64,000 bases of DNA from Hydrocarboniphaga effusa AP103 (lineage in GTDB: Bacteria > Pseudomonadota > Gammaproteobacteria > Nevskiales > Nevskiaceae), in assembly GCF_000271305.1 (NCBI RefSeq), contig NZ_AKGD01000001.1:1-64000 (forward strand). Reading direction: 5' to 3'. Each line of letters opens with the position of its first letter. Position 1 is the first letter of the stretch. A model generated the notes under the pieces. It saw only the letters and a program-made list of their open reading frames with translations, was not told where the DNA came from and ran no database searches. Both the position numbers and the translations under genes were made by a program. Positions 24,426 to 41,791 of the stretch are shown here, piece after piece.

Positions 24426-25214
24426 TTAATCGTTGTAGTAGAGAGGTGTCGCCAGTTTATCGATCCGCAGGCCCTGTGCGCTCCTGGAGACGTGGTAGGT
24501 CGGCGGCCGCAGCGCTTCGAGCTCGCCGTCCGCGAGCTTCTGCTCGAAGAAGGCCAGTGTCGCTTCCATCTTGGAATAGTCCACCTGCTTCTTGAACGGA
24601 GCCAGGTCGTAGCGCCACCACTCGAGTTTGAGCAGGCGTTCGACGATGGATTCGCCGAAGCGCAGCCTGATCACGCGAGCCGGAGAGCCGACCGCGATCG
24701 CATAGGCCGGAATATCGCGCGTGACCACCGAGCGGGCGCCTATCGTCGCGCCCGGGCCGATCGTGACGCCGCGCTTCACGAAGCAGCCCGCCCCGACATA
24801 GGCCTCGTGGCCGATGAAGGTCTCGGACGGCACGGTATCGACGTACGAAGGCCCGCCTTCGGCCTCCGGCGCGAGCCGCGCGAACTCCTCGAATTCGTAC
24901 ATGCCCGGCGTGAAACGCGGCCGCGTGAACGCGAACGGGTGCGAGCTGAACCAGTCCTGCGGATGCTCGGGCGGACCGAGGATCGACGATTCGCCGATTT
25001 GCGCGTAGCGCCCGAAATGCACACGGAACGCGCTCGTCATGCCCGCTGCGTTGAAGAACGTGAAGGCCCCCATGGTGCAGTGCTTGAGCCTGTGCCCCTG
25101 CGGCCAGCACGGCCGCTCGAAGCGCAAGCTTCCATGCAGTCCTGCACCGATACCAACCCCGCCCAACCCGGCCTCGAACAGAGGCCTTCCCTCGCCCACA
25201 CTATGTTCTTCCAT
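24426..25214 (-). CDS. Left-handed beta-helix (hexapeptide) acyltransferase
   Basis: Trimeric hexapeptide-repeat acyltransferase of the xenobiotic/CatB-like branch. The catalytic-His region DWFSSHPFAF lies near residue 92. The hexapeptide coils IGHEAYVGAGCFVKRGVTIG and the VVTRDIPAYAIAVGSPARVI loop follow from about 140. The C-terminal third (SIVERLLKLEWWRYD onward) is longer than in antibiotic acetyltransferases. It lies 6 nt before the free ACP gene and may use that ACP as acyl donor, placing an acyl group on a lipid head group (inference). 29 nt separate it from the phosphodiesterase gene. Confidence 0.85.
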   Translation of the reverse strand: MEEHSVGEGRPLFEAGLGGVGIGAGLHGSLRFERPCWPQGHRLKHCTMGAFTFFNAAGMTSAFRVHFGRYAQIGESSILGPPEHPQDWFSSHPFAFTRPRFTPGMYEFEEFARLAPEAEGGPSYVDTVPSETFIGHEAYVGAGCFVKRGVTIGPGATIGARSVVTRDIPAYAIAVGSPARVIRLRFGESIVERLLKLEWWRYDLAPFKKQVDYSKMEATLAFFEQKLADGELEALRPPTYHVSRSAQGLRIDKLATPLYYND

Positions 25215-25243: not shown

Positions 25244-26857
25244 TCATTCCATGTAGCCGAGCATCTGCAGCTGCTCGATGATCTGCTGCTTCTCCGACGC
25301 ATCCATGTCTTCGCCGGCCTGGCGCTGGGACTTCCTGGTCGGCGCGCCTTTTTTCTGCGGATGGGCGGCCTTGTAGGCATCGGTAAAGAAAGTATCCGCG
25401 ACCTTGCCTTCCATGTCTTTGGGAATCGCCAGACCGAGGCTGTAAAGCAATGTCGGACAGACATCGCGAATATCGCGGCGCTCGACCATGTCGGCCGCGA
25501 CGATGCCCGCGCCCGCCGCCATGAAGATGCCGTCCGGATGATGCGTGCCGGCCGGCGTCGGCCGCTTGACCACGGCCGGCTGGATGTTGCGGATCGAGAC
25601 GAAGCCGTTGTCTCGCAGCACCAGCGTCAGATCGCAGGCCTTGTCCATGTGCGCGCCCGGGAACCACTCCTCGCGCTTGAGCACGTCGACGACCACGGGC
25701 TCGCCGTCTTCGTTGCGCAGCGATTTCAGATCGGCGATGAGCCTTTCGCGGAAGCTCTCGTATTCTTCGGGCTTGATGCCCGGCTCGCCGGGCTGGTTCG
25801 CCACGCGGATATGGATGCCGTTGCTCGACGGCGTGCGGCAGTACGCGGTGGTCTTGCTCCAGTCCAGGTTGGCGAAATCAGAAGCCTCGCGGCGCAGCGC
25901 CTGCTCGCTGCCGTCGTTGACGGCCCACTTCAGGTAACCCTTCTCTTCGAGGAACACGTTGATGCGCAGCACTTCGACCGAGGCGGTGAAACCATGGTCT
26001 GACGCGAAGAACACCTGCACGTCCGGGCCGCAGAGCTTGACGAGCTGCTCGATGTAATCGTCGACGTTGCGGAAGTATTCGAGGCAGACCTCGCGCATGC
26101 GCAGGTCGTGCGCGCTCGGATCGTTCTTGAGCAGCGCCGGATCGAGATACGGCCAGGCCTGATGCTGGATCTTGTCGGTGCCGTCGAACATCACCGCCAT
26201 GAGCTCGGGCTGCTCGGTCTTGAGCACGTACTCGGCGACCTGGAACCACTGGTGCTCGCGCGGCAGGTGATAGCTCACCCACTTGTAGGTCTCTTCCTCC
26301 GAGAGCACTTCGGTAGCCTGCTTCTCGTTGTCGAAATCCCAGGCCAGTTCCTTGGGATCGAAGCCCGGAATCTCGCTCTTGAGCGTCTCGAACAGCCCGC
26401 TCGGATGGCTGTTGCGGCGCAGATGCTTGGCCGGAATGAAGCCCGGAACGATGACGCCGCTGGTTTCGGGAGGCGGCGGCGCCGTGAGCGGAAAATTGAG
26501 CGCCGCGATCTTCTTGCCGTTGCGATTGGCGATCGACCAGATCATTTCCGAATCGACGTCGCGGCTGTCGTAGAGCGTCCAGTAGACCTCGCCGCCCTTG
26601 TCTTCGGCGCGGATGAAATCGAACACGCCGTGCGCGCCCGGATTCTTGCCGGTCATGATGCTGGTCCAGGCCGGCGGCGTCAGCGGGTTCGGCGTCGAGC
26701 GCAGCTTGGCGCGCACGCCGCCTTTGAGCAGCCTGGCGAGAAACGGCATGGTCACGCCCACGTCCGGCAGCTCGCGCGTCATCTCGTCGAGCACCGTGTA
26801 GGTGCAGCCGTCGAGGCCGATGAAGAGTGTCTTGGTCTTGCTGTTCTGCGCGCTCAT
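25244..26857 (-). CDS. Alkaline-phosphatase-superfamily phosphodiesterase/phosphatase
   Basis: 537-aa enzyme of the type I phosphodiesterase/nucleotide pyrophosphatase group. All metal-site pieces are present: Asp in GLDGCTYT near residue 16, the nucleophile Thr in PPAWTSIMTG near 65, Asp and His in MFDGTDKIQHQAW near 228, FASDHGF near 297, and the late His in GTHHPDG near 440. There is no signal peptide, so it probably acts inside the cell. The C-terminal tail is basic and Gln-rich (KKGAPTRKSQRQAGEDMD). In this operon it may hydrolyse or transfer a phosphate-linked group on the lipid or an activated precursor. It starts 81 bp after the second synthase gene, with a hairpin between. Confidence 0.85.
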   Translation of the reverse strand: MSAQNSKTKTLFIGLDGCTYTVLDEMTRELPDVGVTMPFLARLLKGGVRAKLRSTPNPLTPPAWTSIMTGKNPGAHGVFDFIRAEDKGGEVYWTLYDSRDVDSEMIWSIANRNGKKIAALNFPLTAPPPPETSGVIVPGFIPAKHLRRNSHPSGLFETLKSEIPGFDPKELAWDFDNEKQATEVLSEEETYKWVSYHLPREHQWFQVAEYVLKTEQPELMAVMFDGTDKIQHQAWPYLDPALLKNDPSAHDLRMREVCLEYFRNVDDYIEQLVKLCGPDVQVFFASDHGFTASVEVLRINVFLEEKGYLKWAVNDGSEQALRREASDFANLDWSKTTAYCRTPSSNGIHIRVANQPGEPGIKPEEYESFRERLIADLKSLRNEDGEPVVVDVLKREEWFPGAHMDKACDLTLVLRDNGFVSIRNIQPAVVKRPTPAGTHHPDGIFMAAGAGIVAADMVERRDIRDVCPTLLYSLGLAIPKDMEGKVADTFFTDAYKAAHPQKKGAPTRKSQRQAGEDMDASEKQQIIEQLQMLGYME

Positions 26858-26914: not shown

Positions 26915-26940
26915 GATCGCCCGATGATCACCGGGCGATC
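26915..26940 (-). repeat. Intercistronic hairpin after the second synthase gene
   Basis: GATCGCCCG, 8-nt loop, CGGGCGATC; the right arm ends inside the synthase stop codon. With no T-run it is more likely an mRNA-stability or processing element than a terminator. Confidence 0.5.
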
Positions 26941-29900
26941 AGCTGATGCGCTGCACCGCGCCATCGTTCATCTCACGCGGCTGCGCCACGGCCTTCACCG
27001 TCGCCGCGCTGGCCTTTCGACACAGCGCGATCAGGGCATCGCCGCCGAAGTAGAGCTCGACGTCGTAATCGATTCCGCCCCTGCGTACGCTCACGAGTGG
27101 CTGATTGGATGCCCGGCGCTCGAGATTCGCGCTGGCGATCACCCACTCCTGGGGTTTTCCTTCAAGACCCGTGCCGGATGCCTTGGCGGCGGCTTCCTTC
27201 GAACACCAAAGCGCCGTCGCGGCGCGGCGCTGATCGCTCTTGGGCCAGCCGTGGATGAAGGCCTGCGCCTCCGCGAGCGTGAATGCGCCGGCGATCAAGT
27301 CGTCCACGTTGACGCGCTCGATCGCCTGATGCGGCAAAAAATCGATGCCGAGCATCGCACTGTTGCCGCAGACCGCCACCGCCGAGCGGCGGCTATGGCT
27401 GATCGAAACCGCCGGCAGCGCCATGCCTTCGGGCCAGCCGGGCACCGAAACGACGCAAGGCGCACCGCTGTCGCGATAGCCGATCTCGATATCCGCGCCC
27501 GCGATATCGAGCTGCCATTCGCGTGCGGCCCATTCGCGCACGGCCTCTTTGGCACAGACGCGGCCGAGCAGCCATTCCTCGCGGCGCGGGCCGCTGCGCG
27601 GCAGCACGCGATAGAACTCGTGACGCTCGCGCTCGGTCAGCGTCAGATGCGCGAGCAGGCGCATCCACACCGCCCCGCCCTGTTCGAGATAGCCCTCGTC
27701 GAAGGCATCGATGCGCCGTGCGACGAGCCCCGACGACGCGAGTTCGCGCTGCAGCGTCGGCAGCGACAGCGAGTGCCGCAAGGGTGCCAGGCGCAGCTGG
27801 AACAGGTTCTGCGGCACCGCGTACTTGCGATCCTCCCAGCCGGTAGCGCGTGAGAGCAGCGCGCCATGGGCATCGAGCAGATCGAACTGGCAATCGAGCT
27901 TGAGCCCTTCGAGACGGAACTCGCCGCGGCCGAGCATCGCGCGCGACGCGGGCTGCGGATCGGCGTACTGCTCGTAGCGCCCGATCTGGAACGGGAAGCA
28001 GTTGTACTCCCAGCTCAGTTTCTCGGTGAGCCAGAATCCGGCGAGCTGGCCGGCCGCATCGAGCAGCGCCGGGTCGGTGCGCAAGCGCGGCGTTTGCGTG
28101 AAGCCGAAATAATCGTGCGTCGGAATCGTCGCCATGTCGGCTTCGATGCCCTGCTCGTTCCAGCCGCGCAGCCGCTTGACGCCCTGCAGGCGCGGACCGT
28201 GGAACATGCCATGACGGTAGAGCTCGCCGGCCGGATTGTTGCGCGCCGCGTTGAGCGGCTGCGCGAGCGCCGGCATCGGCGTCGGTGCAAGCAAATAGCG
28301 ATCCGCGAGCAAGACATGGCCTTCGAACACGAGCAAGGGCTTGGCCTCGTTCGTATCGAGCTGGAACAGCTTCACCGCGACGCGCGGTGTCGCATCGGGC
28401 GAAGGCTGGCGCTCGGCAACGATGCGCAGTGACAGCTTTCCGAGCTCGTCGAGCGCCAGCCAGCGATGGCCGCGCGCGTTCTCGACCACGGTGACCTTGA
28501 GCGCATCGCCGCAGAGCCGGCAGGCGGCCTCGGCGATGATCTCGACGCTGAAGGTGAACGGCACCACGATCAGCGGAAGCAGCTTGGCGTTGCGCCCGGA
28601 CGGCGCCTCGCCCATCGCGTGGTCGAGCAGGAACGGATCGGTTTCGACGCTGTAGACGCGTTCGCTGAGCAGATGCGCGGCGTCGAGTTCGACGATGCGG
28701 CCGAGCAGCGGATACTGCGGATCGAGATCATCGCCCCTCGTCGCGAGGGGCGCGGCCGAGGCGACGGCGGCCGCTGCACCGCTACCGATGCCGGCGCTGA
28801 TGCCGAGCACGCGCGCCTGCGACTGCATGAAATCCTGCATCAGCGCGAAGTGCGATTGGAGCGCGGCCATGCGCGGATCGATCGGTGTCGCGGGCGTGGC
28901 GATCGCCGCCTGTGGCAGCGTCGCGTCGACCGGCCTGGGCCCGGCCACGACCGCAGGCTTCGGCGCTTCGCTCGCCGGCACCGGCAGCGGACGCTTGGCC
29001 GGAGCCCAGTCCTGCGGCATGCGCAGCGTCGGCATCTGCAGCTTGAGCGTGATCGTGCGGCGCGTGGATTTGACGGGCTCGGCGAGCAGATCGATCTCGC
29101 CATCGATGCGCCGGTGCGCATACAGCGCGGCCGGATCGAAGCTCACGCCGCAGGCGAACAGCTGCGCGAGCATCGCATGCAGCTGCGCCATGTCGGCCTT
29201 GCGGCGGCTGTTGCTCGATACCGCGATCACGTCGTCGACGCCGCGCAAGGTGTCGGAAACGAAAGAAGTCAGGTTGCCGCTCGGGCCCACTTCGACGAAC
29301 ACGCGATAGCCGTCGTCGTAGAGCTTGCGCAGCGTGTCGGTGAAGCGAACCGGGTTTTCCCATTGCTGGGCCGCAAGCTCGCGAATCGCATCGGGCTCGG
29401 TCGGAAACGGCGCCACCGAACGCGCCGAATACAGCGTCGTGCGTCCGCGACCGAAATCGGCCTCGCGGAAATACTCGCGGTACGCGTCGGCGAGCGGCTT
29501 GAACAGCGGCGTGTGATACGCGCGGCCGAACGGCAGCTCCTGGCAGATCGCGCCTTCTTCCGCGAGCTTCTTGGCCAGCGCCTGCGCTTCATCCGGCGGA
29601 CCGAACATCACCAGCTGGTTCGGACAGTTGTCCATCGCCACCTGCATCGAACCCGGATCGGCGAGCAGCGCTTCGCGCATTTCGCCACGCAGGGCGCCGA
29701 TCGTCAGCAGCGTGCCTTCGGCGATGCGTCCTTCGGCTTCGAGCTTGCGGAAGATCAGGTTCAGGTCGCGCACCGATTCGGCGATCTCTTCGCGCGTCTT
29801 GAAGCGGCGCACGCCGCAGGCGGTCACGGCGGTGTTCTCGCCGGTGCTGTGGCCGAGCATCGCATCGGGCGCGAGCTTCAGGTCATCGAGCAGGCTTTGA

Positions 29901-31867
29901 ATCGCCATGCTCGCGGCGAACACACTCTCGGCCGCCACATCCATTTCGAACAGCCGTGCTTCGAGCGCCTTGCGCTGCGCCTCGTCGTAGCCGGTCGGAG
30001 CCGCAAAGACCGCCGAGGCGCGTGATTCGCGGCCGGTTTCGAGCGCGGTGCGCTCGATGAAATCGAACCAGTCGCGCACCTGCGGAAACTGCAGGCACAG
30101 ATCGGCGAGCATGTTGGGGTACTGCGCACCTTCGCCCGGATAGACGAAGCACAGTTTTCCGGGCGCGGCGCCCGTTCCGTAGTGCAGGCCCGAGCGCGTC
30201 TTGAACGGCTTGGCATCCGCACGCTGCAGCTTGTCGATCGCCTGCGCGAGCTTCTTGCCGAGATCGGCGATGTCGTCTGCGACGATCGCGAGACGATGCG
30301 CGCCCGCGGTCTGCGCGACACTGGCCTTGGCGAGCACCGCGAGGTCGGCGCCGGCTTCGACGTGCCTGAGCATCGCGGCTGCCTTGCTCGCGAGTTCGGC
30401 GGGCGAATTCGCAGCGAGCAATACGAGTTCGGTCGGTGCAGGACGGTGCAGAACCTGCACCTGCGTCTTCGACGGTCCGCGATATTCCTCGAGAATCACG
30501 TGCGCGTTGATGCCGCCGAAGCCGAAGGCATTCACGCCGGCCCGACGCGCATGCGACTTGCCGTGCACCCACGGGCGCGTTTCGGTATTCAGATACAGCG
30601 GCGACTGGTCGAGCCGCAATTCCGGATCGGGCTCGTCGCAGAGCGTCGGCGGCAGCACCTTGTGATGCAGCGCGAGCGCGGTCTTGATCAGCGAAGCCGA
30701 GCCCGATGCCGGCAGGCAATGGCCGATCATCGACTTGACCGTTCCGATCGCGATCTGCGGGCCGATGCCGCGGCCGCCGTAGATCGCCTTGAGCGTGTCG
30801 ATCTCGGTGCGATCGCCGACATCGGTGCCGGTGCCATGCGCTTCGATGAGATCGATCGTATGCGGATCGATGCCGCTCGATTCGTAGGCGCGGCGCATCG
30901 CGAGCACTTCGCCTTCTGGCCGCGGCGTCAGCAGGCCCTTGGCGCGACCGTCCGACGCCACGCCGATGCCCTTGATGACGCTGTAGACGCGATCGCCGTC
31001 GCGCTCGGCATCGGCAAGGCGCTTGAGCACGAGCATGCCGACGCCTTCACCGAGCAAGGTGCCCGAATGGCCTTTCTGGAACGGACGCAGCTGGCCGTTC
31101 GACAGCGCCTTGATCTGCGTGAACTGCACATAGAGCTGCGGCGGCGTCTGCGCCTGCACGCCGCCCGTGATCATCAGATCGCAGCGCCCGGTGACGAGTT
31201 CGCGCACCGCCTGGTCGAGCGCCATCATCGTCGAAGCACAGGCCGCGTCGACGATGTAGTTGGGACCCATCAGATCGAGACGATTGCAGATCAGACCGGT
31301 GATGACGTTCGGCGTGAGCTGGCCGACGAGTTCGCCGCTGTAAGGCGGCAGCTGCTGCTTGAGCCTGGCATGCAGATCGCGCATTTCGGCTTCGGAAAAA
31401 TCAGGCCGCAGGCCGCGCACCGCATCCATCAGCTCGTCGACGAACAGCGCATGCGCGAGCACATTGGCCTGGCCGCGATTGGTGTAGGTGCCGCGGCCGA
31501 GGATCACGCCGGCGCGCTGGCGATCGAAATCCTTCTTGCGATAGCCCGCGTCGGCGAGCGCATCGCCCGCATGCTTCAAGGCGAGCAGATGATCGGGGTC
31601 GCCGCCGTCGGCCTGGCTCGGCATCACGCCATATTCGGTCGGATCGATCACCGCGAGATCGCGCAAAAAGCCGCCACGGTTCGTGTAGATGCGATCGTTG
31701 CGCTGCTGCCAGTGATCGCGGTCGAGAAAGTGACGCGTCCACTCCTCATCCGCGGGCGCCACCGCATCGACCTTGTCGAGAATGTTCTGCCAATAGCGCT
31801 GCGCGTTGGCCGCGCCCGCGTAGCAGCCCGACAGGCCGATGATCGCGATGTCGACCGGAGCGGCCAT
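26939..31867 (-). CDS. Pfa-like synthase subunit: KS-AT-DH-phosphopantetheinyl transferase
   Basis: 1642-aa multidomain synthase. KS (about 1-450): active Cys in VDAACAST near 209, then EAHGTGT and IGHCLPASG histidines. AT (about 565-870): PGEGAQYP near 573, nucleophile GHSTGE near 673, AYHTPLF near 780. Pro/Ala linker, then a hot-dog dehydratase-like region (about 1050-1330) with DHAMGE near 1081 and DAAGQLAGFW in the second half. Finally a phosphopantetheinyl transferase (about 1420-1620) with SISHSRRSA, GIDF and WCSKEAAAKASG. There is no ACP, so it must work on the ACPs of the partner protein. The start ATG overlaps the partner's stop as TGATG, tying their translation. It corresponds to PfaC-type KS/DH plus PfaB-type AT plus PfaE in one chain. 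The reading frame stays open for 358 codons upstream of ATG 31867, but that part is the partner gene in another frame. Confidence 0.9.
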   Translation of the reverse strand: MAAPVDIAIIGLSGCYAGAANAQRYWQNILDKVDAVAPADEEWTRHFLDRDHWQQRNDRIYTNRGGFLRDLAVIDPTEYGVMPSQADGGDPDHLLALKHAGDALADAGYRKKDFDRQRAGVILGRGTYTNRGQANVLAHALFVDELMDAVRGLRPDFSEAEMRDLHARLKQQLPPYSGELVGQLTPNVITGLICNRLDLMGPNYIVDAACASTMMALDQAVRELVTGRCDLMITGGVQAQTPPQLYVQFTQIKALSNGQLRPFQKGHSGTLLGEGVGMLVLKRLADAERDGDRVYSVIKGIGVASDGRAKGLLTPRPEGEVLAMRRAYESSGIDPHTIDLIEAHGTGTDVGDRTEIDTLKAIYGGRGIGPQIAIGTVKSMIGHCLPASGSASLIKTALALHHKVLPPTLCDEPDPELRLDQSPLYLNTETRPWVHGKSHARRAGVNAFGFGGINAHVILEEYRGPSKTQVQVLHRPAPTELVLLAANSPAELASKAAAMLRHVEAGADLAVLAKASVAQTAGAHRLAIVADDIADLGKKLAQAIDKLQRADAKPFKTRSGLHYGTGAAPGKLCFVYPGEGAQYPNMLADLCLQFPQVRDWFDFIERTALETGRESRASAVFAAPTGYDEAQRKALEARLFEMDVAAESVFAASMAIQSLLDDLKLAPDAMLGHSTGENTAVTACGVRRFKTREEIAESVRDLNLIFRKLEAEGRIAEGTLLTIGALRGEMREALLADPGSMQVAMDNCPNQLVMFGPPDEAQALAKKLAEEGAICQELPFGRAYHTPLFKPLADAYREYFREADFGRGRTTLYSARSVAPFPTEPDAIRELAAQQWENPVRFTDTLRKLYDDGYRVFVEVGPSGNLTSFVSDTLRGVDDVIAVSSNSRRKADMAQLHAMLAQLFACGVSFDPAALYAHRRIDGEIDLLAEPVKSTRRTITLKLQMPTLRMPQDWAPAKRPLPVPASEAPKPAVVAGPRPVDATLPQAAIATPATPIDPRMAALQSHFALMQDFMQSQARVLGISAGIGSGAAAAVASAAPLATRGDDLDPQYPLLGRIVELDAAHLLSERVYSVETDPFLLDHAMGEAPSGRNAKLLPLIVVPFTFSVEIIAEAACRLCGDALKVTVVENARGHRWLALDELGKLSLRIVAERQPSPDATPRVAVKLFQLDTNEAKPLLVFEGHVLLADRYLLAPTPMPALAQPLNAARNNPAGELYRHGMFHGPRLQGVKRLRGWNEQGIEADMATIPTHDYFGFTQTPRLRTDPALLDAAGQLAGFWLTEKLSWEYNCFPFQIGRYEQYADPQPASRAMLGRGEFRLEGLKLDCQFDLLDAHGALLSRATGWEDRKYAVPQNLFQLRLAPLRHSLSLPTLQRELASSGLVARRIDAFDEGYLEQGGAVWMRLLAHLTLTERERHEFYRVLPRSGPRREEWLLGRVCAKEAVREWAAREWQLDIAGADIEIGYRDSGAPCVVSVPGWPEGMALPAVSISHSRRSAVAVCGNSAMLGIDFLPHQAIERVNVDDLIAGAFTLAEAQAFIHGWPKSDQRRAATALWCSKEAAAKASGTGLEGKPQEWVIASANLERRASNQPLVSVRRGGIDYDVELYFGGDALIALCRKASAATVKAVAQPREMNDGAVQRIS

Positions 31868-34800
31868 CAAAGACGCTCGCTGCCGATGCGATTGAGCGCG
31901 GCGCTCAAGGTGCTTTCGGCATCGAGCATCGCCAGTCGCACTCGCCCTTCTTCGTCGATGAACACCGCATCGTAGCGCACCGCCTGATCGTGATCGGCCG
32001 GCTTGATGCGGAAGCGCAGCGACAGCGAGCCCTTGGGCTTCGGCAGGCCCGGCACGCGCAGCACACGTCCGAAGCGGCTCGGCAGCGCCGATTGCTGCCT
32101 GTGCGTGCGTCCCCAGATCCAGGCGAGCTGCGCGGCCACGTCGATGAGGCCCGGGTCGAACAGCCACTCGCCCTCGGCATCGATCCACTCGCCAAGCGAA
32201 CTCGGCGACACCATCGCATCGACGCCGGCCGGCGCCACCGCCGTGATCCCGGTCAACAGGCGGAAACGACCGGTATGGAACAGCATGCGCTCGTAGGTCT
32301 GATGCGGGTCCATGCGCAGGCCTGCTATCGGCTGCGGCACATCGACGACGGGCGCCTCGAGATGTTCGACGAGCCGTACGGAGGCGCGATACAGCGGCGC
32401 CTTGCGCGTTGGATCGGCGATATCGACCGTCACGGTCTGCTCGCCGGGGCCCGAATGGCTCGTGGCCTTGGCGCGGATTTCGATCTCGCGCGTCGCGCCG
32501 GGTTCGAGCACCACGCCGGCCAGCGTGCGCAGCTCCTGTACTTCGGCGACCTGCCAGCCCGGCCAGCCCTGGCCGACGACCTGCGCGACCCATTCGGTCG
32601 CAGCCGCTGCAGGCAGAACGGGCTTGCCGTCGATCATGTGATCGCCGAGATAGGGATCGCTGTCGAGCCCGAAGCGATGCGTGAGCACGAGCGCGCCGCC
32701 CGCGCCCATGCGCAAAGGGCCACGCACGAGCGGATACTGCGAAGCCGCCGCCTTGCTCGACACGCTCGCCACTTCGGCTTGCTGCCAAGGCCCTTTGCCG
32801 ATCACGAGTTCGACTTCGTGCTTGGGTCCGCAGGCGAGCTCGCGCAGGAAGTAGCGGCGTCCGCCGTCGACCGGAATCGGCTCGATGCCGCGCTCGCGGA
32901 ACTGGCGCTTCACGCCTTCGCTCGCCATGCCGGCGTCCCACGGTCCCCAGTTCGCCGCGATCACGCGCGTTTCGGGCCAGCGACGCGACAGCGTCCAGGC
33001 CAGGCGATTGCAGGCCTCGTTGGCGGCGGCGTAGTCGATCTGCCCGCGATTGCCGTAGCGACCCGCGACCGAGGTGAAGAACACCAGCAGCTTGAGCGTT
33101 TCGGGCCTGAGCTTCTGCGTGAGGATGAAGCTCGAATCGAGCTTGGTGTTGAGCACGCGCGCGAACGAATCGTCGGACTTGTCGGCGATGCGCTTGTCCT
33201 CGATCACGCCCGCGCCATGCAGCACCGCGTCGATGCGGCCATAGTTCGCGTAAATGCCATCGATCACGCCGCCGAACGCCGCCTCGTTGCGCACGTCGCA
33301 GGCGAAGTAGCCGACGGTCGCCCCCTTGGCACGCAGGCGTTGCAGGTTCGCGCGCACTTCGCGCTCGGTCAGGATCTTCTGTACCGCGCGATCGATCTCG
33401 ACGGGCTTGGGCATTTCACCGCGCTCGCGCATCTGCTCGATCAGCACGCGCTTGAGCGAGGCCGGGTCGGTCGCGCTCGCGATGGCGCCCCCAAAAATTG
33501 ATGATTCAGGTGCCGGCTCCGGCGTGCGGCCGAGCAGCACGAGCGTGATGCCCGGAACCACCATTTCTTCGAGCAGCTCGGCGGTGATACCGCGCGCACC
33601 GCCGGTCGCCAGCACGACCCAATCCGCAGCGGGTTGCAGATGCGGTGCGAACGGCGTGTCGGCCAGCGCTTCTTCGACGGTCGCCACGCTGTAGCGCGCA
33701 TCGCCGGTGTGGCCGGCTTCGACGCTGCGATCGTCGGCGAGCAGCTCGTCGGCGAGATGCGAGGCGATGGTGTCGTCGGTCTGGCCGTTGAAGTCGACCG
33801 CGCGCAAAGTCGCTTGCGGATACTCGTCGCGCACGCAATTGAGCATGCCGTTGAGGCCGCCCGCGAGCGGCGTGCCGGGGCCGACCGCATCGCGGCCGAA
33901 GGTTCCGCCGAGACGGCTCGCGGCGATCACGCGAATGTTCGCGAGCCCCTCGCCGATCGGCTGCAGCAGGCGGAACAGCGAAATCACGCTGCGCTCGCCG
34001 AGCTGCTGCCATTCGACGAGCGTCTGCGGCTGGTCTTCGGACAAGCCGTGCAGATGAATCACGCCAGCGATGACGCCGTGTTCCGCGCGAATGCGGGCGA
34101 CCGAGGACGCCAGCGTCGCCGCATCGATCGCATCGAGGCGGATCGGCTTGAGCCCGGCGCTCTCGAGCCGCCTGATCAGTGGCAGCACGATGGCATCGCG
34201 TCCGCCTGCGACGATGACCGGACCGCTCAGCTTTACGCGGGCGCCGGTCAGCGGAGCCGGACGCGGGCGGATCACGTATCGGGGCACGTCGGCGGCTTGC
34301 GCGACGACGGGTTCGCTCGCAGCCGTCGGGATCGGTGCACTCGGGATGCTCGGCGCAGCGGACCCGGAGCCCAGGGCAGCGATGCGTTCGAGAATGATCG
34401 CGAGCGACTTGGCCCGCGTGAAACTCTCCATCGCGGCCTGCATCGCAGCGCCGATCTCGGTCGGCAGCTGCTTCTGCAGCGCGCCGACGATCTCGACGCG
34501 CTTGATCGAATCGATGCCGAGATCAGCTTCGAGATCCGCGTCGAGCGCAAGCATTTCCGCCGGGTAGCCGGTGCGATCGGCGACGATGCCCAGCAGCAGT
34601 TCGCGCGCATCGAAGCTCGTCGCAACGCTCGCCTGCACGATGACCGGCGCCGCGGCGACGGCCGCCGATGCGGGCGACGAAGCACCGAGCGCGGACAGGC
34701 GTTCGAGGATCGTCGCGAGCGACTTGGCGCGCGTGAAGCTTTCCATCGCGGCCTGCATCGCAGCGCCGATCTCGGTCGGCAGCTGCTTCTGCAGCGCGCC

Positions 34801-37800
34801 GACGATTTCGACGCGCTTGATCGAATCGATGCCGAGATCGGCTTCGAGGTCCGCATCGAGCGCAAGCATTTCGGACGGGTAGCCGGTGCGATCGGCGACG
34901 ATCGTCAGCAGCAGGTCGCGCGCATCGAACGAGACGGCGGCCGCAACTGCGAGCGGCGCGGGAGCCGTCACGGAGACCGTGATCGAGACCGGCACCGCGG
35001 AGGACAGCAGCGGCTGCACGGCATCGACGATGCTGCGCAGGTTCTTCGCCCGCGTGAGCTTCTCCATCTGCGACTGCAAGGCTTCGGAAACCGAAGCCGG
35101 CAGCGATTTCTGGAACGCGCCGACGATCTCGACGCGCTTGATCGAATCGATGCCGAGGTCGGCCTCGAGATCGGCATCGAGCGACAGCATGTCTTCCGGA
35201 TAGCCCGTGCGATCGGCGACGAGCTTGAGCAGCGAGGCCTGTACGTCGATCGAAACAGGCGGAGCCGCCGGGGAAGGCATCGTCGACGCAACCGACTGCG
35301 TCACCGCGATCGACGTCGCTGCGGCCGGCAGCAAGGTCGAGGCGATGCCTGCGAGCGGCTCGACGATCGCACGCAAGGTCTTGGCGCGCGTATAGCGCTC
35401 CATTTGCGATTGCATCGCCTCGCCGAGTGCGGCCGGCAGCGCCTTCTGCAAGCTGCCGGCGATCTCGACACGCTTGATCGAATCGATGCCGAGCTCGGCT
35501 TCGAGATCGGCATCGAGCGACAGCATGTCTTCCGGATACCCCGTGCGATCGGCGACCAGACGCAGCAGCATCGCGGAAAGCGCTGCGGTGTCGAGCGTCG
35601 GCGCTGCGGATGCTGCCGGTGTCGGCACGGCTGCAACCATCACGGCAGGAGCAACCACGACGACCGGTGCCGGAATTTGAACCGGCGCAGCAACGGGAAC
35701 CTGCACAGGCGCCACCACATGCACAGGCATCTGCACCGGAGCCGCCATCGGCATCGCCGCAGGCGCGGCAGAACCACCGAGGAATTGCGCCATCACGCGT
35801 TCCTGCAAGCTCAGGAACTGGCGCATGGTTTCGTGATACGCCGCGAGCGCATCGCCGCTTTGCGCCGACGCCGCAACCGGCATCGCCGGAGCGTGAACCG
35901 GCGCCGAAACGGGAGCCGCTGCCTGCACGACGACAGGCTCTGGCTTCGGCAGCGAATCGGCGATCTTCTGCACGATCGCCTGCTTGGCCTCGGCGGCCTT
36001 TTCGAGCGTCATCGGCGGCTCGACGCCGGTACGCTTGATCGGGTCGGCATGCGGGCGCGCATAGCCGCCCGACAGATACCAGGCGGTGGGCTTGACCGTC
36101 GCGGGCTTGGCGAGCTCGGCGACGCGAGCGAGCGGCAGGGCTTCGATCGGGCGTCCCGCGAACAAGCGCGAAAGTTCGAAATCGACACCGGCCGCGAGCA
36201 AGTCGGCAAGGCCCGACAGCAGGCCGCGCAAACCACCGCCCTGCCCGTCGAGCGACACGCAGCGCGCATCGCGACCGGCGAGCGTCGCGCCGATCATGTT
36301 GCTCAGAATGCTCTTGGGACCGAGTTCGAGAAACACGCGCACGCCATCGGCGTACATCGCCTCGATCTCGCGCACGAACTCGACGCTGGATAGCAGATGC
36401 GCATCGAGCTGGGCGCGCATCGCGGCGATCGATTCCGGATAGCGCGCACCGCTACCGTTCGAGTACACCGCGATCGTCGGCGCGTTGAAGCTGGCGTCGG
36501 CGATCGCCGCCGACAGCGGCGCTTTCGCGGGCTCCATGAGTTCGGTATGGAAAGCGCCCGAAACCGGCAGCCGGGTCACCCGCAAGCCGGCAGCCGACAA
36601 GGCCGCGACGGCCGCATCGATCTGCGCCGCCGGGCCCGAAATGACGGTCTGCTCGGGCGCGTTGTGATTGGCGACTTTCACACCCGCGAATGCCGCGATC
36701 GCATCGGCGACCTTGTCGCGCGCAGCGGAGACCGCCGCCATGCCGCCCGGCGTTCCGCTGCTTGCCGCTGCGGCCATCACGCTGCCGCGCGTGGCCGAGA
36801 GCTTGAGGAAATCGGCTTCGTCGATCACACCGGCCGCATGCAGCGCCGCGAATTCGCCATAGCTGTGACCGGCCGTCGCAACCGCCTGCAAGCCGAGCCG
36901 GCGCGCGAGATTGAGATAGCCGAGCGAGAGCGTGCCGATCGCCGGCTGGGCGTAACGGGTATCGGTCAGTTGCTGTTGCTGCGCGACCTCGATGGCCGCA
37001 TTGAACGCGGACTCCGGCCAGACGCGGCGCGACAAGCGCTCGGGCAACAGCGTCGCGAGCGTGCGATCGGCGCGTTCGAGCGCGGAGCGCAGTTCTTCGA
37101 CGAACAGCGCGGACTCCAGGCCCATGTTGACGTACTGCGCGCCCTGCCCCGGAAACACGAAGGCGAGCGTCGGCGCCGTGAGCGGACGCTCGAGCGCGAG
37201 CTTGATGTGCGGCGGCAGCGGCTTGGCATCGCCCGCGAGTCTGGCGAGCGCGAGTTCGAGATCGGCGATCAGCGTGGCGCGATTGCGCGTCGCGAACGCG
37301 AGCAGCGCACGCGAGCCCCGCTTGCGGTCGGCTTCACGAGCAAGGCTCGCGGCGAGCAGCGCAAGCTTGAGTCGCGGGCCGGCTTTCGCGAGTTCGAGTA
37401 CGCGTTCGACATCGGCCTTGAGACTCGCCGCATCGGCCGCGCGAAACACGATGAGTTCCTGCGTCCAGCTGCGAGCGCCCGGCACTTCGGCGTGCGCCAT
37501 GCCGTCGCGATACTCCTCGAGCACCGCATGGAAATTGGTGCCGCCGAAACCGAACGCGGAGACACCGCCGCGACGCGGCGTTCCATCGACGTTCGCGAGC
37601 CAGGGCTTGGGCTCCTTGAGCAGGAAGGCCGGCGAGGATTGCTCGGCGATCGCATCCAGAGGATCGTCGACATTGGCGTGCGCCGGCAGCACGCGGTGAT
37701 GCAGCGAGAGCGCGAGTTTCACCAGGCCCGCGATACCCGCGCTGGCCTTGGTGTGGCCAAGGATGGTTTTCACCGAGCCGAGCGCGACCGTTTTCGCCGA

Positions 37801-40800
37801 CGCGCCATGCGCTTTCAGCGCGCGCGTGATCGTCTCCGCTTCGGCCTTGTCGCCGACGGCGGTTCCGGTGCCGTGCGCTTCGAGCATGCCGAGCGTCGCG
37901 GGAGAGAAGCCGGCCTTGCCGTAAGCACGGTTGAGCGCGCGAATCTGCCCGTCCGGACGCGGAGCGGTCATGCCGAGCGCCTTGCCGTCGCTCGATCCGG
38001 CCACCGCCTTGATCACCGCATAGATGCGATCGCCCGCGGCTTCGGCGTCGGCCAGGCGCTTGAGCACCACCATCGTGACGCCTTCCGAGATCACGATGCC
38101 GTCGGCCTTCTTGTCGAAAGCCTTGGCCTTGCCATCGGGCGACAGCGCGCCGGTCTTGGCGAAGCACATGAAGCCATAGGGGCTCTGCACGGTGTCGACG
38201 CCGCCGGTGATGGCGACGTTGCTGCGCCCCGATTCGAGTTCGTTGCAGGCCATCGACAGCGCCGCGAGCGACGAGGCGCAGGCCGCGTCGATCGTGAAGT
38301 TGAGCCCGCCGAAATCCATGCGGTTGGTGACGCGGCCCGCGGCCACATTGAGCAGCACGCCGGCGAAGGATTCGTTGCTCCACTCGGGCAGGCGCTTGTA
38401 GGCGTCGGCATCGAGATCGGCGACGAAGCGCGGAAGCTCCGAGCGCACGCCGTATTGCAGGCCGAGGTCGCCCGCGCCTCCGCTCGCACCGAGAATCACG
38501 CTGGTGTGCTCGCGATCGAAATCCGCATGGCTCTGGTCGAGCCCGGCGTCTTCGAGCGCGCGATTGACCGCTTCGAGCGTGAGCAGCTGCAGCGGATCGA
38601 TCGACTTCATCGAGTTCGGCGGAATGCCGTAGCGCGTCGGGTCGAACAGCACCTCGTCGATGAAGCCGCCCCACTTGCTGTAGATCTTGTCCTTGGCGTT
38701 GCGGTCGGCGTCGAAGTACAGGCGCCAGTCCCAGCGATCGCGCGGCACTTCTGTGATCGCGTTGACCTTGCCGAGCACGTTGTCCCAATACGCTTCGGCG
38801 TCCTGCGCCTTCGGCAGCATCAGGCCGATGCCGACGATCGCGATGTCGCTCGGCTGCGCCTTTTCGATCCGGACCGAGACCGCGTCGTCGAACCGCTGCA
38901 ACAGCGCGTGGCCGCCGTTGCTGACGCGATCGTGCAGTTCGGCGATCGACAGCGGCGCATCGGTGAGCGTCGCCACCTGGCCGATCATGTACATGCCATC
39001 GGTCAGCTGCTGCGCCGGATCGATGTCGACGACCTTGCCGGACTCGTCGCGGTTCTTGCCTTTGGAGGCGATGCGCAAACGGCCGAGGTTCAGGTCTTCG
39101 AGCGTGTCTCGAATCTCGTCGGCATTGCGGTTCTCGCGCATGAGCGCGCGGCGCGCCTCGAAAAAGTCGTGCGCGAATTTCGTGTCCGCGCAACGCGTCG
39201 CATGGCCCGGCCCGGTTTCGAGATTGACGGTGCGCGCGCAGGCCACGGCCTGCTCCTGGAAGCCCTGCACGATCGCGCCAGTGGCGACGATCTCGTGCGT
39301 GAACAGATACGCGGTGCCCATCAGCGCGCCGACCTTCATGCCACGCGCGGCGAGCGGCGCCGTCAGCGCGGCGAGCATCGCGCCCGAGCGCGCATCGCTG
39401 ATGCCGCCCGCGAACAGCAGGTGAATGTCGGCTTCGCTGCCGGGCTTCACGTTCTCGAGCAGCACCTCGATCATCTGCTCCCACAGCGGGAAACTCGCGA
39501 TCGGGCCGATATGGCCGCCGCATTCGCGGCCTTCGAACACGAAGCGCTTGGCGCCCTGTTCGAGATACATCTTGAGCAGCGCCGGCGCCGGCGCGTGGAT
39601 GTAGGTCTTGATGCCGCGCGATTCGAAAGCCGCGGCCTGGTCCGGACGCCCGCCCGCGATCAGCGCATACGGCGGCTTGCACTTCCAGATCGCCTCGCAC
39701 TGCTCGTCGCGCAGGGCCTGCGGAATGAAGCCGAGCATGCCGACGCCCCAGGCGCGATCGCCCGCGAGCGCCGCGGTCTGCTCGAGCATGTCGAGCACCT
39801 GGTCACCGCGCATCAGCGCGAGCGCGAGAAACGGCAGCGCGCCGTTTTCGGTCACGCTCGCCGCGAAAGCCGGGCTGTCGGAGACGCGCGTCATCGGCCC
39901 CTGGGCGAGCGGATAGCGCGTGCCCTGCGATTGCGCGAGCGCGCTGCCTTCGGCCAGATGACCGAGTTCGGCAGCCTGCCGCAGCGCGTCGAAACTGCTT
40001 TTGCGCAAGGCCTGAATCAGGCGTCCGATGCGCTTGAAACGCGCGCGATAGATCGCCGCGGCACCGATGCCCTGGCCCACCGGAAGCAGCGAGGCTTCGT
40101 CCCAGCCGATGCGCGCGTCGAGGGCCTGCCGCCAGGATTCGATCGCCAGCGTTCCGGCTTCGGCGAGCCTTGCATCCGCGTCAGCGTGCTTGAGCTGTGC
40201 CGCAGCGGGCTTGGCATAAACGCGGCAGGGCGCATCGATGAGCTCGCCGAACAGCCGCGTCTCGGCACCGACCAGGCGCGCGAGTTCGTTCTTGAGGCTT
40301 TCGGGCAGCGCCGAATCGTCGAGCAGCAGAACCTGATCGTCGAGCACCACGCCGGCCGCGCCGGCCGCACGACAACCGGCCGCCGTGTGCAGGCCGACGC
40401 CGCCGCGCACATAGATCGGCAGCGAGGTCTTGCGCAGGAGTTTCTGGATCAGGATGTAGCTCGAATCCTCACCGACCCAGCCCGGAGCCTCATGGCCCTT
40501 GGCGACGAGGCCGGTGACCTTCGGCAGCGCCGCGAGCTGCACGTCGAGATCGTCGGCCCGCGTGACTTGCAGCCACGTGCGGTGATGCGCAAGCACGGCC
40601 CCGTCGAGCGACTTCAAGCCGTCGAACGGCCCCGAGAGCAGCACGGTCAGCGCGCGCTCGCCCGCATGCGCGAGCAAGTCGCGCGCGAGTTCGAATTGCG
40701 CGGCCGGAACATGCAGGCCGACGGAGCCCGACGTGGCGCTCAGCAGTCGCGCGAAGTTCGCATGCGCGAGCCCCGCGTCGGTGCAGAACTCGAGATCCAG

Positions 40801-40899
40801 CAGACCGACGCCGCCCGCTCGCGCCGCCGACACGGCGACTCCGGGATGCGCCCAGGCTGCGGGGGCCAATGCAAGGACATCGAAGCTTGGTTCGCTCAT
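31867..40899 (-). CDS. Pfa-like synthase subunit: ER-KS-AT-(ACP)4-KR-DH megasynthase
   Basis: 3010-aa iterative lipid/polyketide synthase. Residues 1-230 and 330-600 are two nitronate-monooxygenase/PfaD-like TIM barrels, the second with the FMN-site segment GRECGGHIGP near 455. KS (about 680-1130): Cys in DAACASS near 871, EAHGTGT, LGHTKAS. AT (about 1240-1560): PGQGAQY, GHSYGE near 1346. A Pro/Ala/Val linker follows, then four ACPs centred near 1806, 1917, 2025 and 2130, each with LGIDSIKR. KR (about 2200-2680): TGGARGI near 2431 and the SVAG...Y active site. DH (about 2720-3000): HMIDGKPVLP fits HxxxGxxxxP, with DVAAQ as the second-half acid. Pfa synthases usually keep PfaD separate; here it is fused in front. 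It starts 73 bp after the sulfatase-like gene. Confidence 0.93.
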   Translation of the reverse strand: MSEPSFDVLALAPAAWAHPGVAVSAARAGGVGLLDLEFCTDAGLAHANFARLLSATSGSVGLHVPAAQFELARDLLAHAGERALTVLLSGPFDGLKSLDGAVLAHHRTWLQVTRADDLDVQLAALPKVTGLVAKGHEAPGWVGEDSSYILIQKLLRKTSLPIYVRGGVGLHTAAGCRAAGAAGVVLDDQVLLLDDSALPESLKNELARLVGAETRLFGELIDAPCRVYAKPAAAQLKHADADARLAEAGTLAIESWRQALDARIGWDEASLLPVGQGIGAAAIYRARFKRIGRLIQALRKSSFDALRQAAELGHLAEGSALAQSQGTRYPLAQGPMTRVSDSPAFAASVTENGALPFLALALMRGDQVLDMLEQTAALAGDRAWGVGMLGFIPQALRDEQCEAIWKCKPPYALIAGGRPDQAAAFESRGIKTYIHAPAPALLKMYLEQGAKRFVFEGRECGGHIGPIASFPLWEQMIEVLLENVKPGSEADIHLLFAGGISDARSGAMLAALTAPLAARGMKVGALMGTAYLFTHEIVATGAIVQGFQEQAVACARTVNLETGPGHATRCADTKFAHDFFEARRALMRENRNADEIRDTLEDLNLGRLRIASKGKNRDESGKVVDIDPAQQLTDGMYMIGQVATLTDAPLSIAELHDRVSNGGHALLQRFDDAVSVRIEKAQPSDIAIVGIGLMLPKAQDAEAYWDNVLGKVNAITEVPRDRWDWRLYFDADRNAKDKIYSKWGGFIDEVLFDPTRYGIPPNSMKSIDPLQLLTLEAVNRALEDAGLDQSHADFDREHTSVILGASGGAGDLGLQYGVRSELPRFVADLDADAYKRLPEWSNESFAGVLLNVAAGRVTNRMDFGGLNFTIDAACASSLAALSMACNELESGRSNVAITGGVDTVQSPYGFMCFAKTGALSPDGKAKAFDKKADGIVISEGVTMVVLKRLADAEAAGDRIYAVIKAVAGSSDGKALGMTAPRPDGQIRALNRAYGKAGFSPATLGMLEAHGTGTAVGDKAEAETITRALKAHGASAKTVALGSVKTILGHTKASAGIAGLVKLALSLHHRVLPAHANVDDPLDAIAEQSSPAFLLKEPKPWLANVDGTPRRGGVSAFGFGGTNFHAVLEEYRDGMAHAEVPGARSWTQELIVFRAADAASLKADVERVLELAKAGPRLKLALLAASLAREADRKRGSRALLAFATRNRATLIADLELALARLAGDAKPLPPHIKLALERPLTAPTLAFVFPGQGAQYVNMGLESALFVEELRSALERADRTLATLLPERLSRRVWPESAFNAAIEVAQQQQLTDTRYAQPAIGTLSLGYLNLARRLGLQAVATAGHSYGEFAALHAAGVIDEADFLKLSATRGSVMAAAASSGTPGGMAAVSAARDKVADAIAAFAGVKVANHNAPEQTVISGPAAQIDAAVAALSAAGLRVTRLPVSGAFHTELMEPAKAPLSAAIADASFNAPTIAVYSNGSGARYPESIAAMRAQLDAHLLSSVEFVREIEAMYADGVRVFLELGPKSILSNMIGATLAGRDARCVSLDGQGGGLRGLLSGLADLLAAGVDFELSRLFAGRPIEALPLARVAELAKPATVKPTAWYLSGGYARPHADPIKRTGVEPPMTLEKAAEAKQAIVQKIADSLPKPEPVVVQAAAPVSAPVHAPAMPVAASAQSGDALAAYHETMRQFLSLQERVMAQFLGGSAAPAAMPMAAPVQMPVHVVAPVQVPVAAPVQIPAPVVVVAPAVMVAAVPTPAASAAPTLDTAALSAMLLRLVADRTGYPEDMLSLDADLEAELGIDSIKRVEIAGSLQKALPAALGEAMQSQMERYTRAKTLRAIVEPLAGIASTLLPAAATSIAVTQSVASTMPSPAAPPVSIDVQASLLKLVADRTGYPEDMLSLDADLEADLGIDSIKRVEIVGAFQKSLPASVSEALQSQMEKLTRAKNLRSIVDAVQPLLSSAVPVSITVSVTAPAPLAVAAAVSFDARDLLLTIVADRTGYPSEMLALDADLEADLGIDSIKRVEIVGALQKQLPTEIGAAMQAAMESFTRAKSLATILERLSALGASSPASAAVAAAPVIVQASVATSFDARELLLGIVADRTGYPAEMLALDADLEADLGIDSIKRVEIVGALQKQLPTEIGAAMQAAMESFTRAKSLAIILERIAALGSGSAAPSIPSAPIPTAASEPVVAQAADVPRYVIRPRPAPLTGARVKLSGPVIVAGGRDAIVLPLIRRLESAGLKPIRLDAIDAATLASSVARIRAEHGVIAGVIHLHGLSEDQPQTLVEWQQLGERSVISLFRLLQPIGEGLANIRVIAASRLGGTFGRDAVGPGTPLAGGLNGMLNCVRDEYPQATLRAVDFNGQTDDTIASHLADELLADDRSVEAGHTGDARYSVATVEEALADTPFAPHLQPAADWVVLATGGARGITAELLEEMVVPGITLVLLGRTPEPAPESSIFGGAIASATDPASLKRVLIEQMRERGEMPKPVEIDRAVQKILTEREVRANLQRLRAKGATVGYFACDVRNEAAFGGVIDGIYANYGRIDAVLHGAGVIEDKRIADKSDDSFARVLNTKLDSSFILTQKLRPETLKLLVFFTSVAGRYGNRGQIDYAAANEACNRLAWTLSRRWPETRVIAANWGPWDAGMASEGVKRQFRERGIEPIPVDGGRRYFLRELACGPKHEVELVIGKGPWQQAEVASVSSKAAASQYPLVRGPLRMGAGGALVLTHRFGLDSDPYLGDHMIDGKPVLPAAAATEWVAQVVGQGWPGWQVAEVQELRTLAGVVLEPGATREIEIRAKATSHSGPGEQTVTVDIADPTRKAPLYRASVRLVEHLEAPVVDVPQPIAGLRMDPHQTYERMLFHTGRFRLLTGITAVAPAGVDAMVSPSSLGEWIDAEGEWLFDPGLIDVAAQLAWIWGRTHRQQSALPSRFGRVLRVPGLPKPKGSLSLRFRIKPADHDQAVRYDAVFIDEEGRVRLAMLDAESTLSAALNRIGSERL
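34393..35590 (-). repeat. Tandem ACP-coding repeats in the megasynthase
   Basis: Four direct repeats, one per ACP, about 315-335 bp apart (LGIDSIKR codons near 34510, 34824, 35148 and 35481). The third and fourth ACPs in protein order (34707-34929 and 34393-34614) are almost identical at DNA level over about 222 bp, implying a recent duplication or gene conversion. The first two (35366-35575 and 35033-35240) are more diverged. Confidence 0.9.
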
Positions 40900-40972: not shown

Positions 40973-41791
40973 CTATCGCTTGCGACCTTCCAGAAACGGC
41001 ACTTCGAGCACCTTCTCGTGCACGATCGGACCGTGGCCGAAATAGCCCCCTTCACCGAAACACTCGCCGTGATCGGCGGTGATGATGAAATGCGTATCGA
41101 CGGGCGCTTTCGAGATCAGCGCGCCGAGCACCTGATCGACGTATTCGACGGTCTTGACCTGCTGGGTATGCAGATCCTTCATCTGGTCATCGTCGAAGAA
41201 CCGGTCGTCGCTGGCATGCCCGAGTTCGTCATCCATGCGCTTGAACACGCCGTGCACGCCGGAGATGTGCGGCAGCGACTTGGGATCGAGCATGTAGGGG
41301 TAATGCGTCTCGCCCAGGTTCAGGAAATGGAAGCTGGGCTCGTCATCGTAGAACTCGATCTCCTCGACCATGCCGGCGAAATCGCTGTGGTTCGCCATGA
41401 GCTTGTAGTCGTCGAAATGCTTGTTCAGATGCGAGAACGGATTGAGCACCGGCATCGACACGCGCGCGACGTTGCGATAGCCGTTGTCCTTGAGCACCTT
41501 GGGCAGCGAAAGCTGCGGCACGAAGCTCTTGAACGACAGGTCGGCGATGCCGAGCCGGCCGACCCACTGGCTGAATTCTTTCTTGTAGACCTCGGAAGCG
41601 AAGACGCCCTGCGGGCTCTCATGCGGAACCATTCCCATGAGATAGGTGTAGTGCGACGGCGAAGTCCAGGAGGCATAGGAGTACCGGCGGCTACCGGCTC
41701 CAATGCGATCCATGTTCGGACGCTTGGCGCGCTGATAGCTGTCGAACCGGCAGCTGTCCATGACGATGAAAACGAGATTGTGTCCAGCCAT
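40973..41791 (-). CDS. Sulfatase-like alkaline-phosphatase-superfamily enzyme
   Basis: 272 aa, short for a sulfatase. The metal-site Asp lies in FIVMDSCRFDS near residue 12. The nucleophile region is WTSPSHYTYLMG near 43. The later metal site is TADHGECFGEGG with HGPIVHE near 240-255. The formylglycine signature C/S-x-P-x-R is absent (T-S-P-S-H), so true sulfatase activity is doubtful; phosphatase, phosphodiesterase or phosphotransferase chemistry with Ser or Thr is more likely. There is no signal peptide. It is the first gene of the 19-kb lipid-synthase operon, preceded by an AT-rich 190-bp region that should hold the operon promoter. Confidence 0.8.
   Translation of the reverse strand: MAGHNLVFIVMDSCRFDSYQRAKRPNMDRIGAGSRRYSYASWTSPSHYTYLMGMVPHESPQGVFASEVYKKEFSQWVGRLGIADLSFKSFVPQLSLPKVLKDNGYRNVARVSMPVLNPFSHLNKHFDDYKLMANHSDFAGMVEEIEFYDDEPSFHFLNLGETHYPYMLDPKSLPHISGVHGVFKRMDDELGHASDDRFFDDDQMKDLHTQQVKTVEYVDQVLGALISKAPVDTHFIITADHGECFGEGGYFGHGPIVHEKVLEVPFLEGRKR

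Follow-up and report, generated by a model that had tools for sequence, protein, structure and literature searches.

FabK-type enoyl reductases (ERs) form homodimers, contain FMN and work by a ping-pong mechanism, according to the available part of one report (PMC9260719), and the ERs built on a TIM barrel are said, in the sections available of another, to need dimerization for their activity (PMC13311796). In the same sections, the isolated ERb of thraustochytrids is described as aggregated and colourless, and as FMN-bearing in a dimer with ERc, while PfaD is described as having a subdomain of about 80 amino acids ahead of its barrel (PMC13311796). Fused pfaDA genes have been described in Ottowia, Aquimarina and Flavobacterium and likened to Renibacterium, and a pfaBC fusion with a PPTase domain has been described in Aquimarina and Flavobacterium (PMC13291983, accessible part of the text). 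The secondary lipid synthases include Type N (Chitinophaga) and Type M (with Renibacterium); the accessible text on these types mentions no tandem ER, and Figure 1 of that paper may draw ER-KS fusions (PMC3098273).

The window, i.e., the whole stretch of 64,000 nucleotides of Hydrocarboniphaga effusa AP103 that was analyzed, contains two adjacent megasynthase genes. Megasynthase A scored 1343 bits against TIGR02813 (cut-off 1010) and carries the KS, AT, repeated ACP and KR domains of the PfaA-type PUFA synthases; about 650 residues precede its KS. The features of the locus are as follows.

31867..40899, minus strand: open reading frame encoding megasynthase A (3010 aa), PfaA-type (TIGR02813), barrel 1-barrel 2-KS-AT-ACPx4-KR-DH
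39964..40899, minus strand: barrel 1 (residues 1-312), predicted full FabK-fold unit, degenerate (putative pseudo-ER)
38965..39963, minus strand: barrel 2 (residues 313-645), predicted FabK/nitronate monooxygenase (NMO)-type FMN ER, all the catalytic and FMN motifs checked being retained
37669..38847, minus strand: ketosynthase KS (residues 685-1077; Pfam/NCBIfam)
36277..37161, minus strand: acyltransferase AT (residues 1247-1541; Pfam/NCBIfam)
34384..35570, minus strand: four tandem acyl carrier domains (Pfam/NCBIfam; limits approximate, by self-similarity)
32935..33615, minus strand: ketoreductase KR (residues 2429-2655; Pfam/NCBIfam)
31909..32733, minus strand: polyketide-type dehydratase DH (residues 2723-2997; Pfam/NCBIfam)
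26939..31867, minus strand: megasynthase B (1642 aa), KS-AT-(weak DH)-PPTase, pfaBC-like
39511..39513, minus strand: His463, catalytic His of barrel 2, motif EGRECGGH, conserved in 80/80 loci
40477..40479, minus strand: Trp141 of barrel 1, occupying the position of the catalytic His; His in 0/78 loci with this column filled
40339..40341, minus strand: Asp187 of barrel 1, replacing the FMN-phosphate-binding Gly (D70 E8 of 78)
40973..41791, minus strand: AlkP-superfamily sulfatase-like gene (STM4013 family, below cut-off), directly upstream of megasynthase A

Since the ATG of megasynthase B overlaps the stop codon of megasynthase A, the two genes look translationally coupled. The sulfatase-like gene (40973-41791, minus strand) was identified at 42 of the 80 best related loci (of 91 in all) and is better conserved than the synthase, at about 77-90% in Nevskiales-type loci and 64-65% in Pseudomonas and some cyanobacteria, which suggests that one step of the lipid pathway involves sulfate or phosphate. 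Downstream of megasynthase B, a type I phosphodiesterase-like protein (25244-26857, minus strand) and a protein judged by eye to be hexapeptide-acyltransferase-like (24426-25214, minus strand) may tailor the product. The entire window (1-64000) is repeated without gaps at 100% identity 203,532 bases further along the same contig (G000:C1:203533-267532); taken with the estimated contamination of 8.28%, the repeat looks like an assembly duplication. The same genome harbors a second, divergent megasynthase (G000:C1:~928200-936500; loci L003 and L178), in which a degenerate and a catalytic barrel again stand before the KS and which is followed by further KS/AT genes.

The two halves of the N-terminal region were compared with profiles of known families. 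In the first half alone (residues 1-310), the FabK model TIGR03151 (NCBIfam) was matched at 128-260 with E 1.2e-5, and Pfam NMO with E 0.21 only, below its cut-off; in the second half, the corresponding values were 3.7e-18 and 9.1e-14, the latter above the Pfam cut-off. With 52.0 bits against PF03060 (curated cut-off 28), barrel 2 falls within the NMO/FabK superfamily, and both barrels (65.8 bits for barrel 2, 24.8 for barrel 1) lie far below the 453.1 bits of the curated FabK equivalog cut-off (TIGR03151). Profile-profile comparisons with 30 FabK/NMO proteins gave 99.4% (E 3e-21) for half 1 and 99.8% (E 1e-28) for half 2; the values were 70% and 90%, respectively, with ten PfaD-model proteins, and 89.8% (E 1.8e-6) between the two halves.

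The AlphaFold2 model of residues 1-650, which was built on an alignment of this megasynthase family only (61 sequences), has a mean pLDDT of 93.3 and a pTM of 0.94. Eight beta strands were predicted in each half (7-186 and 331-527), each forming a (beta/alpha)8 barrel with a lid, and the junction (300-330) contains no low-confidence linker. FabK was the top structural match of both barrels. Barrel 1, modelled alone from 57 sequences (pLDDT 95.9), was superimposed on FabK 2z6i with Z 30.6 and rmsd 3.0 over 294 residues spanning 3-312, i.e., its whole length including the lid, so that its predicted structure is a full FabK fold; its Z was about 25 with PfaD and 17.8 with an IMPDH barrel, the last of the matches listed. 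Barrel 2 gave Z 32.0 and rmsd 2.2 with FabK over 285 residues spanning 317-650, and Z of about 27-30 with PfaD. At the level of predicted structure, the N-terminus is thus shown to carry two complete FabK/NMO-type units at about 1-312 and 313-645. A preliminary description of this DNA had announced two tandem NMO-type TIM barrels at about 1-230 and 330-600: the two barrels are borne out by the model and the profiles, whereas those limits leave out the lids. Structure prediction of residues 1-650, which it had proposed as the check, showed neither a single barrel nor a first half that is folded differently.

The residues contacting FMN in TIM-barrel ERs are the motif-I Met, the Glu before GGH, the catalytic His, the phosphate-binding Gly-Gly and Gly-Thr, and a lid residue, which is Met in FabK and the mutation of which abolishes FMN binding in the FabK of T. 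maritima (PMC13311796, available sections). These sites were counted over all 80 loci (the best 80 of 91), the gaps being due to truncated contigs. In barrel 2, Met336, Glu456, His463, Gly528, the lid Met638 and the Gly-Gly are each conserved in 80/80 loci, and the Thr of the Gly-Thr site is T in 68 and S in 12; this barrel therefore presents the whole set of NMO/FabK motifs (motif-I Met, His of xGGH, GG and GT phosphate sites, lid Met). GRECGGHIGP is located at 457-466, in the second barrel as previously described, and barrel 1 has KGHEAPGWVGEDSS at 134-147.

In barrel 1, the position of the FMN-contacting Glu is occupied by K in 51 loci, R in 23, and H, L, T and V in one each (n=78), that of the catalytic His by W47 R11 F9 I3 V3 K3 Y1 L1, with His in 0/78, and that of the phosphate-binding Gly by an acid in 78/78 (Asp 70, Glu 8). 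Met is found at the lid site in 0/79 loci (P61), and no motif-I Met was found among the 61 aligned rows, this column being the least surely aligned. Barrel 1 has therefore lost the Met, Glu, His, Gly-Thr and lid Met and kept GG166-167 (78/78) and GQ275-276 (79/79), in line with the earlier suggestion that it is degenerate and perhaps non-catalytic. Since an acid stands at the phosphate site, barrel 1 is unlikely to bind FMN. It also shows conserved polar residues (Asp187, Gln189, Glu195, Glu213, Arg226), and Gln189, Glu195, Ser196, Glu213 and Arg226 are nearly invariant.

The label "PfaD-like" given to the barrels in the preliminary description is not the best one. The PfaD model TIGR02814 matched neither half at E up to 1 and nothing in the whole genome of the strain at E up to 0.001, and a PfaD-type N-terminal subdomain (about 80 aa) is not present directly before barrel 2, where barrel 1 stands instead, only 18 residues separating the end of the first unit from the first strand of barrel 2 in the AlphaFold2 model. 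Judged by profile, the nearest kin of both barrels is FabK/NMO. In a quick tree of 24 barrel pairs, in which long branches were flagged, barrel 1, barrel 2 and PfaD each form one clade, so that the pair could well have a single origin. When barrels 1 and 2 were held together, the likelihood exceeded that of the free quick search (lnL +36.2, p 0.93), as it did when barrel 2 was held with PfaD (lnL +23.6, p 0.83); since both constrained trees score above the free one, the tree singles out neither an internal duplication nor a PfaD origin. The term "duplicate" used earlier is compatible with the first grouping, and a duplication inside the gene is plausible; the tree also allows the second. In one genome (G114; loci L088 and L151), a PfaD scoring above its curated cut-off is found alongside a synthase with the barrel pair, which shows that the two types of ER can coexist.

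The loci were found using peptide patterns of the window protein, and the set of 80 (the best of 91) therefore leans towards its relatives. They span Nevskiales, Pseudomonas, cyanobacteria, Melainabacteria-type lineages, Planctomycetota, Chloroflexi, Chitinophaga and one Pyrinomonadaceae MAG. Both barrels are present in 78 of these best 80 loci, and the contigs of the other two (L061 and L081) start inside the gene; the frame extends at least 900 residues beyond the start of the match in 77/80. The alignments included 60 of the 80 loci (A1), 56 (A2) or 19 (A3), each with the window. Over 61 rows, the mean pairwise identity is 37% in barrel 1 and 62% in barrel 2, barrel 1 having the lower identity in all 1830 pairs, and the correlation between the halves is 0.89, which indicates that the two halves travel together and that barrel 1 appears to be under looser sequence constraint.

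Because the pattern search had started from the window protein, genomes were then sampled evenly, and profiles were used to locate the pair (domain E <1e-3). Among 398 Pseudomonadota genomes, the phylum of the window, the catalytic barrel was matched 12 times at E <=1e-40 in 10 genomes, and strong matches of the barrel 1 profile (E <1e-33) occurred in the same 10. Barrel 1 precedes barrel 2 in the same frame at each of the 12: 11 loci were checked, and the twelfth is an exact copy of the window gene. The catalytic barrel was found in 3 of 244 genomes sampled from the phylum of Fischerella and in 3 of 247 from that of Chitinophaga, with barrel 1 upstream in all six. Over the three phyla, the degenerate barrel precedes the catalytic barrel in the same open reading frame in 18/18 matches. 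These matches lie in 16 of the 889 genomes, and the phylum samples were drawn around three of the 16. The weakest barrel 1 match in these evenly sampled genomes (E 9e-22) is that of the most distant synthase (L196, genome G590), where barrel 1 is present, though even the Gly-Gly is lost. In genome G251, the frame has 571 aa and barrel 2 is incomplete.

Local decay of one gene was ruled out, since His is found in 0/78 loci and barrel 1 precedes barrel 2 in 18/18 sampled matches. A free-standing barrel 1 enzyme encoded elsewhere was also ruled out: in the scan of the 398 Pseudomonadota genomes, where up to five of the best first-look candidates were scored per genome, matches at E <1e-33 occurred only in fused frames (571-3013 aa), and weaker matches, from E 7e-25 on, were mostly in ordinary proteins of about 320-540 aa.

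What barrel 1 might do was considered in the light of these data. It is fairly probable, in our view, that it acts as a covalent pseudo-protomer, standing in where a FabK-type dimer has its second subunit. Of the two rigidly joined copies, one is catalytic, and the other, non-catalytic one is most simply read as the second protomer. The iterative PUFA-synthase-like megasynthase would then carry its own FabK-type ER at the N-terminus as a covalent pseudo-dimer. Barrel 2, judging from its retained residues, would bind FMN, be reduced by NAD(P)H and reduce the enoyl chain on the four ACPs. Barrel 1, with its predicted full FabK fold and its lost FMN and catalytic residues, would be FMN-free and would pack rigidly on barrel 2, offering the surface for which FabK-type reductases depend on a second subunit; a free partner chain would then be unnecessary, and one active ER would stand at the KS end of each chain. 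In this reading, barrel 1 retains its fold, lid and Gly-Gln while its flavin site is free of selection. The pTM of 0.94 over 650 residues and the high pLDDT at the junction argue for one rigid body, and a dimer-like packing of the barrels, the weakest step of this reading, can be inferred. The structural role previously suggested for the first barrel is supported as probable by its fold, by the conservation at its sites and by the fact that it accompanies the catalytic barrel without exception in the sampled genomes. Three points stand against the pseudo-dimer: the rigid packing could involve a surface other than the FabK dimer face, both thraustochytrid ERs keep the His and bind FMN and are thus no precedent for a pseudoenzyme, and the conserved polar residues of barrel 1 could mark a pocket with a function of its own.

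These polar residues, present besides the lost FMN site, would also suit a docking or scaffold domain binding the ACPs, megasynthase B or the KS dimer and orienting the chain for barrel 2, which would itself dimerise with the barrel 2 of the other chain. Synthase chains with a KS dimerise, and this would unite two copies of barrel 2. The high pTM and the lack of a low-confidence linker suggest, however, that barrel 1 contacts barrel 2 directly, and it retains the FabK-type lid and the Gly-Gln, so that a docking function seems possible but rather doubtful. We regard as unlikely a further proposal, in which several phyla have retained a dead ER as a covalent subunit devoid of FMN, whose own surface or pocket (Asp187, Gln189, Glu195, Glu213, Arg226) is under selection and which serves as a gatekeeper choosing the elongation cycles for reduction by barrel 2; if true, it would mean that a pseudoenzyme controls unsaturation in an iterative synthase. 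There is little to recommend the idea that barrel 1 has gained some other activity, such as an FMN-independent acyl-binding or gating pocket choosing the cycles of enoyl reduction: the Asp or Glu at the old phosphate site in 78/78 loci and the near-invariance of Gln189, Glu195, Ser196, Glu213 and Arg226 point to selection beyond the fold, but the old catalytic position is highly variable (W, R, F, I, V, K, Y, L), barrel 1 diverges fast and the distant L196 lacks even the Gly-Gly. That barrel 1 is an ordinary second ER still binding FMN is very improbable, since the complete fold and the retained Gly-Gly are outweighed by the loss of the motif-I Met, Glu, His, phosphate Gly-Thr and lid Met. A first half consisting of part of a single barrel or of an unrelated fold, as the sub-threshold Pfam NMO match might have indicated, can practically be dismissed in view of the FabK profile, the profile-profile, AlphaFold2 and structural matches of barrel 1, and is ruled out at the level of prediction by the strands, the lids and the FabK match.

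A widespread group of secondary lipid synthases thereby gains a concrete N-terminal architecture, namely a predicted FabK-type pseudo-ER/ER pair rather than PfaD, and annotating a single "ER" at the N-terminus of such megasynthases hides a second domain. If the pseudo-dimer reading is true, the pair shows how a dimeric reductase can be built into a single chain, and the choice of reduction cycles in iterative synthases becomes testable on a compact unit of 650 residues.

No tandem pseudo-ER/ER was found in the text of the papers searched in one open-access library; within the reach of this search, neither the degenerate barrel, nor its occurrence at every match in the sampled genomes, nor the affinity with FabK rather than PfaD has been described. 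The ER-PfaA fusion itself is not new, since the published fused pfaDA/pfaBC-PPTase layout matches the gene pair of the window: in the pfaDA systems, the ER is joined to a PfaA homolog and two strains also have pfaBC-PPTase, but the available text mentions no second, degenerate barrel, the comparison being based on the published description (PMC13291983). FabK (2z6i, 5gvh, 7l00, 9pl0) has in common with barrel 2 the fold, the lid, the motif-I Met, EGxExGGH, GG, GT and the lid M-x-G-Q, and is about 22-26% identical to barrel 2 and 13-18% to barrel 1; unlike FabK, the barrels described here are in tandem and fused to a megasynthase, one copy being degenerate. The PfaD of the PUFA synthases (4yx6, 4z9r, 6lkc) resembles the pair in its likely role, gene context and barrel fold, but the barrels of the window lie in a fused chain, do not match TIGR02814 and belong to a separate clade in the quick tree. 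Like the pair, the thraustochytrid ERb and ERc are two related TIM-barrel ERs of one synthase, forming a heterodimer in which ERc has been proposed to stabilise ERb; according to the available sections, they are separate polypeptides, 75-80% identical, both with FMN and the His (PMC13311796), whereas the pair of the window consists of one chain with two very different copies, one of which is without the site.
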